The notes below the pieces were generated by a model. It saw only the letters and a program-made list of their open reading frames with translations. It was not told the DNA's origin and made no database searches. Positions 2,714-44,338 of a DNA stretch of 64,000 nt are shown here, in pieces; position 1 is the stretch's first letter; every line of letters starts with the position of its first letter. The position numbers and the translations under genes were made by a program. Origin of the DNA: Flagellimonas flava (GTDB lineage Bacteria > Bacteroidota > Bacteroidia > Flavobacteriales > Flavobacteriaceae); assembly GCF_900129665.1 (NCBI RefSeq), contig NZ_FQWL01000001.1:124001-188000 (forward strand). Direction: 5' to 3'.

Positions 2714-3286
2714 TTATTCCCGGATTACCTTGACCAAACCATCATTACCCAATTTAATAATTGATGATGGGGAAGGGTTTTTGTTTTCGTCCGGCAAATT
2801 TACCACATAGTCCACTCCTTTTAAAATTTCTGGTGCTATCTCCTTAAAAGATTTTGGTGTTGGAAATCCTGAAATATTGGCGGAGGTCGATACAATTGGT
2901 TTCCTAAATTTATTGATAAGGTATTGACAAAATTTATCCGAGGCTACACGGATTGCAATGGTATTGTCTTCGGCAATAAGGTTTTTGGCAATACCTTGTG
3001 GTTCGTCAAATACAATGGTTGTGGGCTTGGTGGCCAGATCAATGATGTCGTAAGCTGCCTCAGGGACCTCTTTTACGTGCCGTTCCAACATGGCCTGGTT
3101 GCTCACCATGCAGATTAACGCCTTGCTATCTTCCCTTTGTTTCAGCGCGTATACTTTTTTAACGGCTTCCGGGTTGGTGGCATCGCAGCCAATGCCCCAA
3201 ACGGTGTCCGTTGGGTAGAGGATCAACCCGCCATCTTGCAGCGTGTTAAATGCGCTGTCCATTTCGGGTAAAAAATCAGGTTTCAT
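2714..3286 (-). CDS. tsaC: L-threonylcarbamoyladenylate synthase (TsaC/YrdC family)
   Basis: This 190-residue YrdC-domain protein makes threonylcarbamoyl-AMP from threonine, bicarbonate and ATP, the first step of t6A37 tRNA modification. Diagnostic stretches are [16 protein letters not shown] near the N-terminus, [13 protein letters not shown], and the C-terminal [17 protein letters not shown]. It is the short TsaC form without the Sua5 extension. Its ATG directly abuts the stop of the NeuB-type gene (no intergenic base), so translation is likely coupled to the sugar genes upstream. Confidence 0.9.
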
Positions 3287-4156
3287 TTATTTCTTGTACT
3301 TGAGTTTTTCCCGTTGGACACTTTCAATATCCAAAATGTCCTTGGATTTGTAAGTGAGTGCTTTGTGGGTTGCCCTAAGATCACGACATAATTTTCGAAG
3401 TCCCATAGGTTCCAAGGACGCTGCATGATCGGTTCCCTTCCAAGTTCTGTCCAGTGTGAAGTGACGCTCAATGATATGGGCACCCAATGTATAAGCCGCC
3501 ACGTCGACCGCAATACCCAGATGGTGGCCAGAAAACCCAATGCTCTTAACTCGTGAATCATATTGCTCCTTAAGCTTCAGGATGTCAAGCAAGCAAATAT
3601 CCTCAAAAGGAACTGGGTATCCAGAGGTACAGTTGTACACCACCAAATCCTTTGCCCGACCTCGTTCTTCAAAAAAATCGATAAGGGTGGAAATTTCATC
3701 TTTGGTGGTCATCCCTGTGGACACATGCAGTTCTCCTTCATAATTATCACACAGCCATCCCAGCATTTCAAAGTTATTGTTGCACGCGGATGGGATTTTT
3801 ATGAATTCAGGATTTAGGCTAGAAATTTCCTTGGCCGAGGTGGTCTCCCAAACCGAAGTGGAATAGGTAATGCCCACTTCGTTACAATATGCCATTAATT
3901 CTCGATGTTGTTCCACATCAAACTCAAGAAACTCCCGATGTTCTCCATAAGTGCTACCGTACGAGTTTACAGGATTGGGATGGGGCTCGTTATACTGCTT
4001 TTCCGTCAACAATTCTTTGTTGTTCCTTTTCTGAAACTTTACAGCATTGGCATTACCAAAGATTTTGGACATATAGATCAATTCTTTGGCAATTTTCATA
4101 TCGCCTTTGTGGTTGCAACCAATTTCGGCAATGATATAGGGTTCTTTATAGGTCAT
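3287..4156 (-). CDS. neuB: NeuB-family nonulosonate (sialic acid / KDN type) synthase lacking the SAF domain
   Basis: The 289-residue protein is a complete NeuB-type TIM barrel that condenses PEP with a six-carbon sugar to a nine-carbon ulosonate. Family motifs are AEIGCNHKGD at the N-terminus, NAVKFQKR, IPSACNNNFEML, HVSTGMT, GFSGHHLG and the metal/PEP region ERHFTLDRTWKGTDHAASLEP. It ends where the C-terminal antifreeze-like (SAF) domain normally starts, so it is about 60 residues shorter than classical NeuB. The ATG overlaps neuA by 11 nt. The substrate (ManNAc, ManNAc-6-P, Man-6-P or a legionaminic precursor) cannot be read from sequence; no NeuC epimerase is in the window. Confidence 0.85.
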   Translation of the reverse strand: MTYKEPYIIAEIGCNHKGDMKIAKELIYMSKIFGNANAVKFQKRNNKELLTEKQYNEPHPNPVNSYGSTYGEHREFLEFDVEQHRELMAYCNEVGITYSTSVWETTSAKEISSLNPEFIKIPSACNNNFEMLGWLCDNYEGELHVSTGMTTKDEISTLIDFFEERGRAKDLVVYNCTSGYPVPFEDICLLDILKLKEQYDSRVKSIGFSGHHLGIAVDVAAYTLGAHIIERHFTLDRTWKGTDHAASLEPMGLRKLCRDLRATHKALTYKSKDILDIESVQREKLKYKK

Positions 4157-5318
4157 TAAATCTTAGATTGTAGTTTATGATAAATTCGCAGGCTTCACGT
4201 ATGGCTCCCTGCGCTGAGGCATTATTCAAGGTTATGTCAGCAATTTGCTTAATAGGTTTTGTGGCATTGGAGGGGCAAAAGGACCATCCTACCCTTAACA
4301 TGTTGGCCATATCGTTGACATCATCTCCAATGTAAGCGATTTCCTGTGGGCTTAGATTCCGTTCATTTCTTAGGTTTTCTAGAAATGAGAATTTATCCTT
4401 GACCCCAAGGAACACATCGGAAATCTTCAACTTTTTCATGCGTTGAGCTACGGTTTCGGAATTCTCGGAAGTCATGACCATCACATTGACATTGTGCTGT
4501 CTTATGATTTCCAGTCCCATTCCATCACGCATATCGAAGGTCTTTGAAAATTCACCCTCAGCATTGTAAACGATTCTACCATCGGTAAAAACACCATCCA
4601 CATCTAGGATTAGATGTTTGATCTGTTGTGGTTTCTTTTCCCCTTTAAACCGAGAGATCAATAATTGTTCAATGATTTGCCAATCGGTCTCAGAGTCAAT
4701 TTCTGTAAGCGTATCTTCCGGCATTTCGATGATGCCAATGTTTCCGCTCAATCGGTTGCCTGATTCCAACAGTGCCTTTTTGTGGGTTGCATAAATGGAC
4801 CCATTCTCAATTAAAAGCCCTTCAAAGTCCTGTCTTCTAGGTCTTTTGGTATAATCATAGTTAATACTTTTTCCATCTTCCGACCAAATAAACCGGTGTG
4901 TACGCACCACGCTAACGACCGCATCTTTGCCCTCTTTCTGTAACGCCTGCAGTGCCTGATTGATATGGTCACGTTGGGTGAGGGGGGAAGTGGCCTGCAG
5001 TAGACAGAAGATATCATAATTGTGATCTATTAAACCAGAAAACTCAAGCATGGCAGATTCTGTACTGGCCGTATCCGAAGCATTTTCAGGGGACCTTTTT
5101 AAGGTCTTTACTTTTTTGCTCCAGGAATAGTTTTTGCCAATGTAGGAAATGATTTCCTCGTCATCGGTGAACACATAAACCTCGTCAAGATTGGAGAAGA
5201 TGGCCTCTGTGAGTGCCCAAGAAAAAAGAGGTCTTCCCAAAAGTTTCTTTTTATTTTTCCCCGGAATACCCTTGGAATCTTTCCGTAGTGGAATAAAGCC
5301 TATGGTTTTTATCTTCAT
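4146..5318 (-). CDS. neuA: CMP-nonulosonate synthetase (NeuA) fused to a KdsC-like HAD phosphatase
   Basis: Residues 1 to about 225 form an acylneuraminate cytidylyltransferase: the CTP-binding LRKDSKGIPGKNKKKL (11-26), LLQATSPL (107-113) and the ENGSIYATHK stretch. Residues from about 233 form a type C0 HAD phosphatase resembling KdsC, with all catalytic motifs present: D239 and D241 in LDVDGVFTDG, S284, K307/K309 and GDDVND (331-336). The predicted joint activity is dephosphorylation of a nonulosonate-9-phosphate and its activation with CTP. Vertebrate CMAS has a similar domain order. It lies between the sialyltransferase-like gene (10 nt gap) and neuB (11 nt overlap). The true substrate is inferred, not shown. 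Confidence 0.85.
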   Translation of the reverse strand: MKIKTIGFIPLRKDSKGIPGKNKKKLLGRPLFSWALTEAIFSNLDEVYVFTDDEEIISYIGKNYSWSKKVKTLKRSPENASDTASTESAMLEFSGLIDHNYDIFCLLQATSPLTQRDHINQALQALQKEGKDAVVSVVRTHRFIWSEDGKSINYDYTKRPRRQDFEGLLIENGSIYATHKKALLESGNRLSGNIGIIEMPEDTLTEIDSETDWQIIEQLLISRFKGEKKPQQIKHLILDVDGVFTDGRIVYNAEGEFSKTFDMRDGMGLEIIRQHNVNVMVMTSENSETVAQRMKKLKISDVFLGVKDKFSFLENLRNERNLSPQEIAYIGDDVNDMANMLRVGWSFCPSNATKPIKQIADITLNNASAQGAIREACEFIINYNLRFNDL

Positions 5319-5328
5319 TTGTTGCGGT

Positions 5329-6375
5329 TTAAGATGGGATCTCCATATTTTTTATCAAATCCCTTGTGGCGCCAACGGTAAATTTATCCAAATAATCCTT
5401 ACCTAGGAAAAAGCGCTCCTTTACTATTTCTAGGTTGGACAGTGCGGTTGAAAAAAGTGTGTAGCCTTGCTCAAAGTGAAAACCTTCCTTTAGGCCAAGG
5501 ATTTCTATGGGGAAGAGCGCGGGCAAAACGGTTATATCCTTAAAATGCTCTTTATATTTTGTTAGTTCCCTGGGATGGGTTTTTAAGATGATGTTCATAT
5601 TCTTGGGAATTTTTGAAACCACATCCTTGTAAATCTCAATTTTTACCGCCTCATTTTTAATGACCTTGTCCTCTGAGATAGGTTGGGTGAGAATGAGGGC
5701 GTTGTTCTTATTTGGTATTTCTAGGGAGCCTGAATTCAAAAAAATGTCAAACACCTCTTTTTTAAGTGTCTTGGACCAAAGGGCAACTTCTTTTTTGATA
5801 TTGAGTTCCTTGGATTTCCCTTGCAATGCCTTAGGTAATTTTCTTGGAAATTGGGCGTAAATTGTTTTTATCTCCTTATCGAACCCACCGCCAATGGGTG
5901 TTTTGGTTATGAAGGTTTTTAGAAACTGTTCAAAGGTCGAGTGACGTTTAATATAGGTCCTGGCGCCATCTTCAATCATGTTTATATCCCTATTCTTTCC
6001 AAATTCGTATAAGAAGTAACTCTTTGACGAATCCGTATCGCACAGGTAGAGTTCTGAATTTTTAATGAACTCCTTTTCCTTTTTTAACGTAGGATGTCTG
6101 TTTTCCAGATAGGGAATCAGTTTGGATTTCCTTCTCACGGAATAATTTAATTTACCCAAGTCTTTTACGTGGTCTCTGCGCTCCGAAATGATATGGACAT
6201 CCCTGAAAAATCGTTTTTTCAGATTGGGGATAAGGGTTTCTATCATAGGGGTGCTCTCCACCAAAAAAAGCAGGTTGTCCCCGTAATCATCAACGGACCC
6301 ATTAGAGTCTTTTAGGATATGTATCAGGGATAGATAAATATGGTATATTGTAGACCCAACATAGGTTCGTTGCAT
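5329..6375 (-). CDS. Candidate CMP-nonulosonate (sialyl-type) glycosyltransferase
   Basis: I cannot assign a named family with certainty. The 348-residue protein carries the three short motifs shared by bacterial sialyltransferase families (GT38, GT52, GT80): an acidic D/E-D/E-G motif (MIEDGA, E135-D136-G137), an HP motif (KTHPRE, H267-P268) and a Ser/Thr pair (S309-T310), in the right order for a GT-B fold. The N-terminal YVGSTIYHIYLSLI resembles the first strand-helix of such enzymes. I chose ATG 6375 over a TTG at 6411, since the first strand begins right after it and the candidate -7 box lies at 6425-6432. Next to neuA and neuB, transfer of a CMP-activated nonulosonate to a surface glycan is likely. 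Confidence 0.6.
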   Translation of the reverse strand: MQRTYVGSTIYHIYLSLIHILKDSNGSVDDYGDNLLFLVESTPMIETLIPNLKKRFFRDVHIISERRDHVKDLGKLNYSVRRKSKLIPYLENRHPTLKKEKEFIKNSELYLCDTDSSKSYFLYEFGKNRDINMIEDGARTYIKRHSTFEQFLKTFITKTPIGGGFDKEIKTIYAQFPRKLPKALQGKSKELNIKKEVALWSKTLKKEVFDIFLNSGSLEIPNKNNALILTQPISEDKVIKNEAVKIEIYKDVVSKIPKNMNIILKTHPRELTKYKEHFKDITVLPALFPIEILGLKEGFHFEQGYTLFSTALSNLEIVKERFFLGKDYLDKFTVGATRDLIKNMEIPS

Positions 6376-6416
6376 AGAAAATATAGGAATTGTGTGGAGG
6401 ATGTACCTCAAAAAAC

Positions 6417-6424
6417 TACATTTG
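6417..6424 (+). promoter_or_regulatory. -7 promoter element for the plus-strand GT2 gene
   Basis: The bases read TACATTTG, an exact TAnnTTTG match, 25 nt before the ATG at 6449. A TTG at 6390-6392 could be a -33 element, at a rather long spacing of 24 nt. The box directly abuts the divergent box at 6425-6432. Confidence 0.45.
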
Positions 6425-6432
6425 CAAAAGTA
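6425..6432 (-). promoter_or_regulatory. -7 promoter element for the nonulosonate/tsaC/cca/ctaA operon
   Basis: On the minus strand the bases read TACTTTTG, an exact TAnnTTTG match, 50 nt upstream of the ATG at 6375. It shares no base with, but directly touches, the plus-strand box, so RNA polymerases on the two sides should exclude each other. Confidence 0.45.
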
Positions 6433-6448
6433 CTAAAAACTCTAGTTA

Positions 6449-7261
6449 ATGCCTGCCCTGAGCGTAATTATAAGCACCTATAACAAACCTGATTGGCTTG
6501 AAAAAGTCCTTTGGGGTTTCGACTGTCAGACCTACAAGGATTTTGAGGTTGTGATTGCTGATGATGGTTCTTCAGACGCTACCAGGAAAAGGATAGAGGA
6601 ACTACGAAACCAGCTAAGTTATCCCATCAAGCATGTTTGGCAGGAAGATGATGGTTTTCAGAAATGCAGAATTCTTAACAAGGCGATTGTGGCTACCGAA
6701 GCGGACTATATTATTATGACCGACGGGGACTGCATTCCCAGAGAAGATTTTGTGGAAGTTCATTATATCAACAAAGCACCTTCAACTTTTATTTCAGGGG
6801 GCTATTATATGTTACCTATGAACATATCCTTGGCCATAACAAAACAGGATATACTAGAGCAGAACTGTTTTAACATCCAATGGCTTAAGGAAAAGGGAAT
6901 CCCTCAAACCTTTAAGAACAATAAGCTTACTGCAAATGGGTTTATTTCCAAGCTTTTAAATGCGTTTACGCCTACTAATCCAAGCTGGAATGGCCACAAC
7001 TCATCCGCATGGAAACAGGATATTCTAAACGTTAATGGTTTTGACGAGCGGATGCAGTATGGCGGTGAGGATCGCGAAATGGGCGAGCGTATGGTGAATT
7101 TTGGAATTAAAGCCAAGCAGCTCCGCTATAGTGCAGTTTGCGTACACCTAGATCATGACCGCGGTTATAGGAATGAAGAGGCCCTATCAAAGAACAAGGC
7201 TATCCGAAGGGAAACCAAAAGCACTAAATCAGTGTGGAGTCATCACGGCATTACCAAATAA
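6449..7261 (+). CDS. Family 2 glycosyltransferase
   Basis: The 270-residue soluble protein has a GT-A fold: N-terminal SVIISTYNKPDWLEKVL, the nucleotide-binding VVIADDGSSD (around 35-44), the metal-binding MTDGDC (DxD type, near residue 95) and a C-terminal galactosyltransferase-like GFDERMQYGGEDREMGER. Proteins of this layout commonly build LPS core or capsule. It diverges from the nonulosonate operon and its 3' end overlaps the opposite-strand glycosyltransferase by 19 nt. Donor and acceptor are unknown. Confidence 0.88.
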   Translation: MPALSVIISTYNKPDWLEKVLWGFDCQTYKDFEVVIADDGSSDATRKRIEELRNQLSYPIKHVWQEDDGFQKCRILNKAIVATEADYIIMTDGDCIPREDFVEVHYINKAPSTFISGGYYMLPMNISLAITKQDILEQNCFNIQWLKEKGIPQTFKNNKLTANGFISKLLNAFTPTNPSWNGHNSSAWKQDILNVNGFDERMQYGGEDREMGERMVNFGIKAKQLRYSAVCVHLDHDRGYRNEEALSKNKAIRRETKSTKSVWSHHGITK

Positions 7262-41401: not shown

Positions 41402-42142
41402 CTAAAAGTCCAGTTTCTTTTTTCGGAGCTCAAAGTTTTGACCTAAGTATACTTTCCTTACCATTTCATCAACGGCCAGTTCCTCTGGTACCCCGGCCTT
41501 GAGAATACCACCCTCAAACATAAGATAAGAACGTTCCGTAATGGCCAAGGTCTCTTGCACATTGTGATCGGTAATCAGAATGCCAATGTTCTTGTTTTTC
41601 AACTGGGCCACAATACGTTGAATGTCCTCCACTGCAACGGGGTCCACTCCGGCAAAAGGCTCGTCCAAAAGGATAAATTTGGGGTCTGTGGCCAATGCGC
41701 GAGCTATTTCGGTCCTACGGCGTTCTCCTCCAGAAAGAAGGTCACCCCGGTTTTTCCGAATGTGTCCAAGACCAAATTCGTCAATAAGCGATTCCATTTT
41801 CATGTGTTGCTCCTTTTTACTCAAATTGGTGAGCTGAAGCACGCTTAAAATATTTTTTTCGATGCTCAGTTTCCGAAATACAGAAGCTTCCTGAGCCAAG
41901 TAACCAATCCCATTTTGGGCCCTTTTATACATGGGGAATGTTGTGATTTCCATATCATCTAGAAAGATCTTTCCCCCATTGGGTTTGATCAGTCCCACGA
42001 TCATGTAAAAAGAAGTGGTTTTTCCAGCGCCATTTGGACCTAAAAGTCCAACAATCTCCCCTTGATTGACTTCCAAGGAAATACCCTTTACAACTTTTCG
42101 GCCCCGATAGGCCTTCATAATATTATCGGCTCTTAACTTCAT
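41402..42142 (-). CDS. lptB: LPS export ABC transporter ATP-binding protein LptB
   Basis: The 246-residue ATPase powers LPS extraction from the inner membrane with LptFGC. It shows Walker A GLLGPNGAGKTTSFYM, the signature LLSGGERRRTEIARALA, Walker B FILLDEPFAGVDPVAVEDIQ and the switch His in ILITDHNVQETL; the LptB-type GIGYLAQEASVFRKLS is present. It is the last gene of the kdsD-tatC-CMD-lptB operon, so Kdo synthesis and LPS transport are encoded together. Confidence 0.96.
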   Translation of the reverse strand: MKLRADNIMKAYRGRKVVKGISLEVNQGEIVGLLGPNGAGKTTSFYMIVGLIKPNGGKIFLDDMEITTFPMYKRAQNGIGYLAQEASVFRKLSIEKNILSVLQLTNLSKKEQHMKMESLIDEFGLGHIRKNRGDLLSGGERRRTEIARALATDPKFILLDEPFAGVDPVAVEDIQRIVAQLKNKNIGILITDHNVQETLAITERSYLMFEGGILKAGVPEELAVDEMVRKVYLGQNFELRKKKLDF

Positions 42143-42550: not shown

Positions 42551-43373
42551 TTTTCTTAGCTTTTTTAGCTTCTTGTTTGACCACAACCTTTGAAATATAA
42601 ATGCTCGCTTGGTATAACAACAATACCGGTATAGCCACAATGATTTGGCTGGTGACATCAGGAGGGGTTATTACTGCACACAATATGAGGACAACGACAA
42701 GCGCTATTTTTCGATATTTTTTCAAAATTTCGGGGGTAACCAACCCTACTTTGGTCAGAAAGAAGATGATGATGGGAAGTTCAAACATAATACCACAGGC
42801 AATTACGGATGAACGTACCGTAGCGATGAAGGAACTGATATCAATTTCATTGGATACTTCCTGGCTGACCTGGTAGGTCCCCAAAAAGTTGATGGACAAG
42901 GGGGCCACTACATAATAACCAAACAAAACCCCAAGAAAAAACAATGATGATGCGACTAAAATAAACCCTCTGGAATACTTTCTTTCGTTTTCATGCAGGC
43001 CAGGGCTTATAAAGCGCCAGACCTCCCAAAGTACATAGGGAAAGGCAATAATGACTCCCGCCCAGATAGAAGTCCAGATATGCGCGGAAAACTGCCCGGC
43101 CATCGTTCGGTTCTGGATGGTAAATGGCAACGATTCCCCACAAAATTCTGAGTCGACTCCAAAGAAGTTGGCAATTCTACAGAAAAATTGGTAAGTAGGA
43201 AAGTCCATTTTTTTAGGACCGAAAATGATAGTATCAAAAATGAAATCCTTCATGATAAAGGCTCCGCATCCCACAATGACAATGGCTACGGTAGATCTGA
43301 TCAAATGCCAGCGCAGTTCCTCCAAATGGTCCAAAAAGGACATCTCGTTGGGGTGTTCAATCTTTTTCGTCAT
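42540..43373 (-). CDS. tatC: Sec-independent protein translocase subunit TatC
   Basis: The 277-residue protein has six membrane helices and TatC hallmarks: the N-terminal MSFLDHLEELRWHLIRS with the signal-binding E and R, PYVLWEVWRFISPGLHENER in the first cytoplasmic loop, and the late IIFFLTKVGLVTPEILKKYRK. It binds twin-arginine signal peptides of folded exported proteins. Its start overlaps the kdsD stop by 1 nt (TAATG). No tatA gene lies in the window. Confidence 0.95.
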   Translation of the reverse strand: MTKKIEHPNEMSFLDHLEELRWHLIRSTVAIVIVGCGAFIMKDFIFDTIIFGPKKMDFPTYQFFCRIANFFGVDSEFCGESLPFTIQNRTMAGQFSAHIWTSIWAGVIIAFPYVLWEVWRFISPGLHENERKYSRGFILVASSLFFLGVLFGYYVVAPLSINFLGTYQVSQEVSNEIDISSFIATVRSSVIACGIMFELPIIIFFLTKVGLVTPEILKKYRKIALVVVLILCAVITPPDVTSQIIVAIPVLLLYQASIYISKVVVKQEAKKAKKNAK

Positions 43374-44338
43374 TACAGAATACCTTCATTTATGAGGTTA
43401 TGGATATGTACCACTCCAGCATAGGTTCCATTTTCAAAGGCAAGTAGCTGCGAAATACCATTGTCCTGAAGGGTTTTTAAGGCTTTTACGGCCAAGGTAT
43501 CGGTATCCACGGACTTCGGGTCCTTGGTCATGATATCCCCGGCGGTCAATTCTCCAATATTGTCGTGTTTGCGAAGCATTCTTCTAATATCCCCATCCGT
43601 GACCACGCCAACAACCTTACCGTTTTCAAGTACGGCTGTTACCCCTAACATTTTTTCTGAGATTTCTACAATGACCTCCTTCACACTTGAATGTATGTCT
43701 ACTTTCGGAACCTGATTGTTTACCACAATATCGGCGACCCTTAGGTATAATTTTTTCCCTAGCGCACCTCCGGGATGGTATTTGGCGAAATCGGCACTGC
43801 TAAACCCACGAAGTTCAAGCAGGCAGATCGCGAGGGCATCTCCCATGGCTAGTTGGGCCGAAGTACTTGTTGTGGGAGCCAAATTATTGGGGCAGGCCTC
43901 TTTTTCCACGTAGGTGCTCAGAACAAAGTCGGCCTGTTTGGCCAGAACGGAATCCATATTCCCAGTAATGCCTATGAGTTTGTTCTTGCCAATTTTAATC
44001 AAGGGCAACAAAGCCTTTATTTCTGGGGTATTTCCACTTTTTGAGATACAGACTACCACATCATTTTTTTGAATGGTGCCCAAATCGCCGTGAATAGCAT
44101 CTGCGGCGTGCATAAAAATTGCAGGAGTTCCCGTTGAATTGAGGGTGGCCACAATCTTGGAGGCAATAATGGCACTTTTTCCAACTCCGGAAACTACAAC
44201 CCTTCCCTGGGATTGAAGGATGAACTGAACTGCTTCGGCAAAGTGATCATCTAGAAAATCGACCAAGTTGAGAATGGCCTTGCTTTCCGTTTCCAGGGTT
44301 CTTTTTGCAATGGATAAAATAGACTGGGTATCGCTCAA
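43373..44338 (-). CDS. kdsD: D-arabinose-5-phosphate isomerase (KpsF/GutQ type)
   Basis: The 321-residue enzyme converts ribulose-5-P to arabinose-5-P for Kdo synthesis. The N-terminal SIS domain shows GRVVVSGVGKSAIIASKIVATLNSTGTP, the His-containing DAIHGDLG and CISKSGNTPE; two C-terminal CBS domains follow (about 205-321). No ATG is available; TTG 44338 gives the family N-terminus. It heads an envelope operon with tatC, CMD and lptB and diverges from recQ. Confidence 0.94.
   Translation of the reverse strand: MSDTQSILSIAKRTLETESKAILNLVDFLDDHFAEAVQFILQSQGRVVVSGVGKSAIIASKIVATLNSTGTPAIFMHAADAIHGDLGTIQKNDVVVCISKSGNTPEIKALLPLIKIGKNKLIGITGNMDSVLAKQADFVLSTYVEKEACPNNLAPTTSTSAQLAMGDALAICLLELRGFSSADFAKYHPGGALGKKLYLRVADIVVNNQVPKVDIHSSVKEVIVEISEKMLGVTAVLENGKVVGVVTDGDIRRMLRKHDNIGELTAGDIMTKDPKSVDTDTLAVKALKTLQDNGISQLLAFENGTYAGVVHIHNLINEGIL

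Follow-up and report, generated by a model that had tools for sequence, protein, structure and literature searches.

Two described pathways for the nonulosonic acid KDN (2-keto-3-deoxynononic acid) provide the closest comparison for the genes analysed here. The KDN pathway of the gut bacterium Bacteroides thetaiotaomicron consists of a Kdn-9-phosphate (Kdn-9-P) synthase, the phosphatase BT1713 and a CMP-KDN synthetase. In the alga Prymnesium parvum, the route leads from mannose-6-phosphate (Man-6-P) via Kdn-9-P and Kdn to CMP-Kdn, the Kdn-9-P synthetase converted Man-6-P only, and the CMP-Kdn synthetase made no CMP-Neu5Ac (PMC6200933). Here, we analyse three adjacent genes in a stretch of 64,000 nucleotides from Flagellimonas flava (contig NZ_FQWL01000001.1, positions 124,001 to 188,000; hereafter, the window) that encode a NeuB-family synthase without the SAF domain, a CMP-transferase/HAD fusion and a GT52-like transferase. 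This trio is probably a self-sufficient CMP-KDN cassette. We consider the Man-6-P/KDN reading well supported, not proven; the substrate, the product, the reaction order and the acceptor are what we infer from the sequences.

The gene trio and its proposed KDN route

The arrangement described in an earlier note, which was made from the sequence alone, was recovered in full, with all three open reading frames (ORFs) in place and their domains matched. Along the minus strand, the GT52-like transferase gene is followed by the fusion (after a gap of 10 bp), the short neuB (overlapping the fusion by 11 bp) and tsaC (0 bp from the synthase gene). The synthase, a proposed KDN-9-phosphate synthase of 289 aa (3287..4156), matches PF03102 (NeuB) at 227 bits. 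The fusion (390 aa; 4146-5318) joins an N-terminal CMP-nonulosonate synthetase domain (about aa 1-222, 4653..5318; PF02348 at aa 7-184) to a C-terminal KdsC-type HAD, the proposed KDN-9-P phosphatase (about aa 228-390 plus the stop codon, 4146..4637; TIGR01670 at aa 233-382). In the proposed pathway, ManA would make Man-6-P from fructose-6-P, the synthase would condense Man-6-P with phosphoenolpyruvate into KDN-9-phosphate, the HAD half of the fusion would strip the phosphate, the CMP-transferase half would activate KDN with CTP, and the GT52-like enzyme would add KDN as a cap to a surface glycan, most likely the core of the lipopolysaccharide or lipooligosaccharide (LPS/LOS). A route through a 9-phosphate had already been suggested in the earlier note, and the specificity residues of the HAD, the residues and phylogeny of the synthase, the lack of NeuC and NanE, and the presence of ManA now argue for it, with Man-6-P still the deduced substrate.

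A Glu56/Lys67 pair reportedly distinguishes KDN9P from KDO8P phosphatases (work ascribed to Lu, 2009, and Daughtry, 2013). Glu56, Arg64 and Lys67 (BT1713 numbering here and below) are present in 24 of 24 window-type fused HADs, including that of the window, in 5 of 5 HADs of a second fused type, and in 16 of 16 solo HADs of the B. theta type, a label for the gene types of loci with BT1713-like HADs rather than for BT1714/BT1715 themselves. By comparison, the 15 KdsC rows, which come without exception from genomes that encode a short synthase like that of the window, all have Gly at position 56 and never Lys at position 67. The rows sorted under the label 'SOLO' are mixed: besides these 15, they include a contig-truncated fusion (L007) in which the Glu/Lys pair is present and 12 others, seven with the pair and five (L084, L085, L087, L090 and L091) without it. 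For the CMP domain, the best relative in the PDB is 9t4z, 'PpNeuA' (153 bits, 42% identity), probably the P. parvum CMP-Kdn enzyme (its record states the name alone); mouse CMAS (1qwj) comes next (115 bits, 38% identity).

The synthase scores 203.4 bits against TIGR03569 (NeuB/NnaB), for which the cut-off is 399.65, and its AlphaFold2 model (pLDDT 94.3) has a final helix that stops at residue 285 and no SAF domain; the best fold matches are NmNeuB (1xuu) and Leptospira 6ncs. The nearest synthases from named organisms are those of Flagellimonas algicola (94% identity) and an Allomuricauda metagenome-assembled genome (MAG; 92%). The residues E11, K40, K120, Y180, S209, H211, H232 and D243 are retained, and most of the NmNeuB catalytic set is kept. 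At the column of Nm Glu134, 32 of 32 short synthases have Cys and 19 of 19 of the B. theta type have Asp; at that of Nm Gln55, the former have Gln and the latter Thr. Both types share eight further columns, K43, R44, T69, Y70, G71, H73, R74 and K240. The full set occurs in 31 of 32 short synthases (including that of the window) and 18 of 19 of the B. theta type; among 17 other NeuBs, 12 lack all eight, four retain one or two, and four are found in L088. The basic residues in this set are candidate phosphate binders. Arg314 of NeuB, which we take to contact the N-acetyl group, is in the SAF domain: its column, placed by 1xuu numbering, holds Arg in 14 of the 17 other NeuBs and Lys in three (one being the L088 row, which is unreliable), Ser in 19 of 19 of the B. 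theta type, and a gap in all 31 other short synthases, where the domain is gone; the window synthase likewise ends after the barrel. These residues favour a phosphosugar substrate without the need for N-acetyl recognition, and taken alone are also compatible with N-acetylmannosamine-6-phosphate (ManNAc-6-P).

In a midpoint-rooted tree of 71 rows, in which several long branches were flagged by the tool, the 32 short synthases form one clade (100/100), the 19 of the B. theta type form another (100/100), and both, together with L088, are separated (100/96) from NmNeuB, PseI, the NeuC-linked NeuB and 16 more rows. The input to alignment and tree was limited to full ORFs of 270-400 aa, leaving out truncated ones and a 581-aa SpsF/NeuB fusion (L104). 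Two candidate markers were dropped: the column of human NANS Met42, which we took to be a KDN marker, is mixed (Met in 11 and Ile in 11 of the 32 short synthases), and the exact string TYGEH[RK] is present in just 12 of the 31 other short synthases owing to variation at position 72, so that single columns were used. We also observed a third synthase type (L122, from genome G338, 4043-5477; 321 aa), encoded next to a HAD that has E56/K67; this synthase has four of the eight common residues and is placed next to the short clade with weaker support (93/85). Four loci encode NeuB-like and SpsF-like domains in a single protein of 554-586 aa. Three of these, with the NeuB domain first (L093:2040-3713, L101:638-2302 and L103:7551-9311), adjoin a separate B. 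theta-type synthase; in the fourth, with SpsF first (L104:2870-4615), TYGEHR is found in the NeuB half itself, and a KDN9P-like HAD is encoded about 0.6 kb away.

The third gene encodes a GT52/polysialyltransferase-like nonulosonate transferase (348 aa; 5329..6375), which scores 68.5 bits against PF07922 (GT52; gathering score 26.1) and 41.7 bits against PF07388 (polysialyltransferase). The ORF list starts this transferase at TTG 6411; the Met encoded at 6375 is found in each of the six proteins aligned, and so are EDG and HP, presumably the GT52 motifs.

The earlier note had reported that the window holds neither NeuC nor legionaminic or pseudaminic acid (Leg/Pse) genes, and the search was extended to the host genome (3.83 Mb, 99.97% complete; the window is on its contig C12). 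The whole genome has a single NeuB-family match and thus no separate Leg/Pse synthase; NanE was not found in a profile search (E 0.001), nor was NeuC, with the two PF02350 epimerases of the genome scoring 96.8 and 89.7 bits against a NeuC cut-off of 235.9. Both epimerases, encoded far from the window, exceed the WecB cut-off of 210.15 (463.5 and, barely, 212.1 bits), and by eye their genes sit with UDP-ManNAcA-like and FucNAc-like genes. ManA was detected with PF20511, which was used in place of PF01238; the latter had no match in 29 genome entries because the model now spans just a C-terminal stretch of 48 positions. With two duplicates removed (G032=G060, G033=G059), these entries represent 27 short-synthase genomes, of which 25 have the window-type fusion. 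NanE exceeds the cut-off in 0 of the 27 (there are weak matches below 23 bits in some, none in the genome of the window), NeuC in two (G041 and G067, in both beside or near a different, long NeuB), and the GlcNAc 2-epimerase (AGE) family is found in 11, the host of the window among them. None of the three is present in 15 of the 27, or 14 of the 25 with the window-type fusion; a few of these 15 are MAGs, and completeness is stated for a minority of genomes. ManA is found in 25 of the 27, including all 25 with the window-type fusion. On contig C18 of G041 (L118, L119), the NeuC-linked long NeuB set lies about 16 kb from the short synthase.

Distribution in relatives and the exchangeable slot

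Using the fusion protein as the query, 21 named contigs were fetched, and in all 21 a short synthase is encoded next to the fusion or no more than about 1.3 kb away, which argues that the pairing is not due to chance. The GT52 gene, the flanking GT2 gene and tsaC are kept in five of these loci (Flagellimonas, Allomuricauda, Poritiphilus, Maribacter and Pareuzebyella). The pairs of Flavobacterium, Salegentibacter, Zunongwangia and Polaribacter sit inside larger clusters of glycosyltransferase-like genes, an MBOAT-like gene was noted by eye in 10 of the 21 loci, and the pair also occurs in Labilibaculum. A window-type fusion and a short synthase were further seen on a contig assigned to a Thermosipho MAG (L048, JASKLO010000039.1, 4357-6495), which reflects either a transfer between phyla or a mis-binned contig. 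Among 395 genomes of the class that were sampled, nine, including the host of the window, encode this synthase at E 1e-80; a search of the same genomes with NF058599, the KDN-9-P phosphatase equivalog, gave 20 HADs over the cut-off among the matches listed. Beside KDN9P-like HADs are either synthases of the short type or long, SAF-bearing ones (344-359 aa), the latter represented by 19 distinct full-length rows, some of them beside HADs below the NF058599 cut-off. The second fused type (five distinct HADs: L010, L079, L082, L083 and L089) also accompanies short synthases.

A tsaC match was found in 39 of 40 genomes of the genus, and we defined the slot as the side of tsaC where the window has the trio followed by a GT2 gene, clustering the genes by single linkage at 38% identity or more. 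Its edges in the window, which belong to the context and not to the pathway, are tsaC/sua5 (2714..3286, minus strand; PF01300, and TIGR00057 above cut-off) and the GT2 glycosyltransferase gene (6449..7261, plus strand; PF00535); the latter is kept in most of the 39 genomes, replaced or not found in three, and off the contig in one. The KDN trio occupies the slot in six of the 39 (one cut by a contig end). The most common content is a weakly GT2-like gene, x10 (19 genomes, two with a TupA-like gene), followed by x18, which has no Pfam match (seven, two with a further GT2-looking gene), a GT4 gene (two), other glycosyltransferase-looking genes (two), a TupA-like gene alone (one) and a Gly_transf_sug gene (one); in one genome, the contig of which starts inside the GT2 gene, the slot contains nothing. 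Poritiphilus, Maribacter and Pareuzebyella carry the same trio at this site too. Given the alternative gene sets beside tsaC, the trio is one version of an exchangeable set. We tentatively suggest, as a possibility with somewhat less than even chances, that the class of SAF-less KDN-9-P synthases moves together with the NeuA-HAD fusion and the transferase, the three forming a portable cassette that brings both the sugar and its transferase. Within the genus, this cassette would be among at least seven sets that alternate in one slot, so that one exchange would switch the surface cap to KDN, a sugar that withstands most sialidases.

Elsewhere in the window, an LptB-like ABC protein (41402-42142) and a KdsD/KpsF-like sugar isomerase (43373-44338) were recognized by eye, so that Kdo/LPS genes are also inside the window. 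On the minus strand within 6376-6450, about 50 bp before the GT52 start, the string TACTTTTG matches what we take to be the Bacteroidota -7 element, TAnnTTTG, and is a candidate by resemblance alone.

Competing explanations

Several observations weigh against the Man-6-P/KDN reading. No dedicated precursor genes are found in the window, as the earlier note had it, but the genome encodes a GlcNAc 2-epimerase on contig C6 (508 bits to 6f04), which makes ManNAc possible, so that the argument from missing precursor genes rests on the relatives without this enzyme; a ManNAc kinase (ROK family) was not seen by eye among the ORFs of the window and was not searched for genome-wide. The window HAD is below the NF058599 cut-off (135.5 vs 180 bits), and the KdsC-family model TIGR01670 scores it as high (137 bits, cut-off 106.95); fused relatives with a short synthase reach 192.7 (L079), 177 (L082 and L083) and 166.1 bits (L089) with NF058599. 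Vertebrate NANS accepts both ManNAc-6-P and Man-6-P and has part of the same motifs, so the common motifs mark a phosphosugar substrate more firmly than they mark KDN. No ManA match was found in genome G045, which has the second fused type, or in G041, where the short synthase is accompanied by an unfused, distant CMP transferase with no HAD beside it. WecB-like genes were noted by eye near the module in 4 of the 21 named loci. The link between fusion and short synthase is strong, not absolute, with exceptions both ways: among the matches listed, nine HADs are in frames of at least 380 aa, the fused size, and seven of these genomes have a short synthase while G192 and G460 do not, and in G320 and G407 a short synthase occurs with a HAD that is not fused.

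If the synthase used ManNAc-6-P and made Neu5Ac-9-P, as in the animal-type route, the product would be CMP-Neu5Ac. The GlcNAc 2-epimerase of the genome, the CMP domain, almost as close to mouse CMAS as to PpNeuA, and the use of a phosphosugar by vertebrate NANS are all in line with this route, which nevertheless appears improbable given the counts of NanE (0) and NeuC (2) among the 27 short-synthase genomes, the 15 of these with none of NeuC, NanE and AGE over cut-off, the KDN-9-P-type residues of the HAD, and the surroundings of the epimerase gene, which by eye look catabolic (a LacI-type regulator and a solute symporter). Far less credible is an ordinary NeuB acting on an unphosphorylated sugar, with the HAD half vestigial or structural, as in vertebrate CMAS. 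Membership of the synthase in PF03102 is unambiguous, and CMAS does have a HAD-like tail (3ewi was matched), but D10, D12, K80, D103, D104 and D107 are retained in 24 of 24 window-type HADs, and the synthase both lacks SAF and groups away from NmNeuB, PseI and the NeuC-linked NeuB.

The Man-6-P/KDN reading can also hold with a different acceptor, that is, CMP-KDN could be made and KDN placed on a protein O-glycan or capsule instead of the LOS core. We regard this as rather unlikely, although less so than either alternative substrate. Among the 21 named loci, 16 showed no GT52 relative within the stretch that was fetched, and the majority of these 16 pairs are inside larger glycosyltransferase clusters. 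Yet the genus slot has conserved GT2 genes next to it, joined in some genomes by Glf or a GT9 heptosyltransferase-like gene, which suggests an LPS-core locus, and the best fold match of the transferase model is a Neisseria LOS sialyltransferase (2yk5). The model itself is weak (pLDDT 60), and because it is poor the fold matches are weak as well; the LPS/LOS core is the most likely acceptor on the grounds of synteny alone, and both these points count against our preferred scheme.

Comparison with known nonulosonate systems

KDN is best known as a sugar of cold-blooded vertebrates and has also been reported from some bacteria and algae; it is resistant to most bacterial and viral sialidases (PMC7845648). 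The signature of the short synthases would allow picking candidate KDN producers from genomes and would help to separate phosphosugar from free-sugar NeuBs, and the trio offers a three-gene source of CMP-KDN. The slot suggests exchange of an outer sugar, perhaps, to speculate, under pressure from phages or grazers. Literature searches on KDN and nonulosonate genes, at the level of titles and abstract openings, returned nothing on a SAF-less synthase or on KDN as part of the LPS of flavobacteria, which is no proof of absence.

With the Neisseria NeuB/NeuA/NeuC route to Neu5Ac, the window shares the NeuB barrel and most catalytic residues of the synthase; in contrast to that route, it has no NeuC and no SAF domain, Glu134 is replaced by Cys, and a phosphatase is present. 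The GT52 LOS sialyltransferases of Neisseria (NST) have PF07922, EDG and HP in common with the window transferase, the donor and acceptor of which are putative. The P. parvum pathway has the same proposed steps, and its probable CMP-Kdn enzyme is the nearest solved relative of the CMP domain, but it belongs to an alga, its genes are separate, and no phosphatase homologue was found there (PMC6200933).

The likeness to the B. thetaiotaomicron pathway that the earlier note had pointed out stands at the level of function: the three activities are the same, the HAD specificity residues are the same, and dedicated precursor genes are missing there too. The gene types, however, differ. Loci with BT1713-like HADs have a long, SAF-bearing synthase (31-35% identical to that of the window) and a solo HAD, with an SpsF-like transferase nearby in 15 of 20 extended loci and a NeuB/SpsF-like fusion in three more, whereas the window synthase has no SAF domain and the HAD there is fused to a NeuA/CMAS-like transferase. 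Describing the trio as a minimal version of the pathway is doubtful given that the B. thetaiotaomicron pathway also has three enzymes and that Daughtry and colleagues reportedly described, in 2013, a KDN-9-P phosphatase (KDN9PP) fused to a nucleotidyl transferase, which resembles the window fusion by description only. The proposed pathway is a variant of one already described in a gut bacterium and in an alga, and its newer parts are the clade of SAF-less synthases and the setting in a swap slot.

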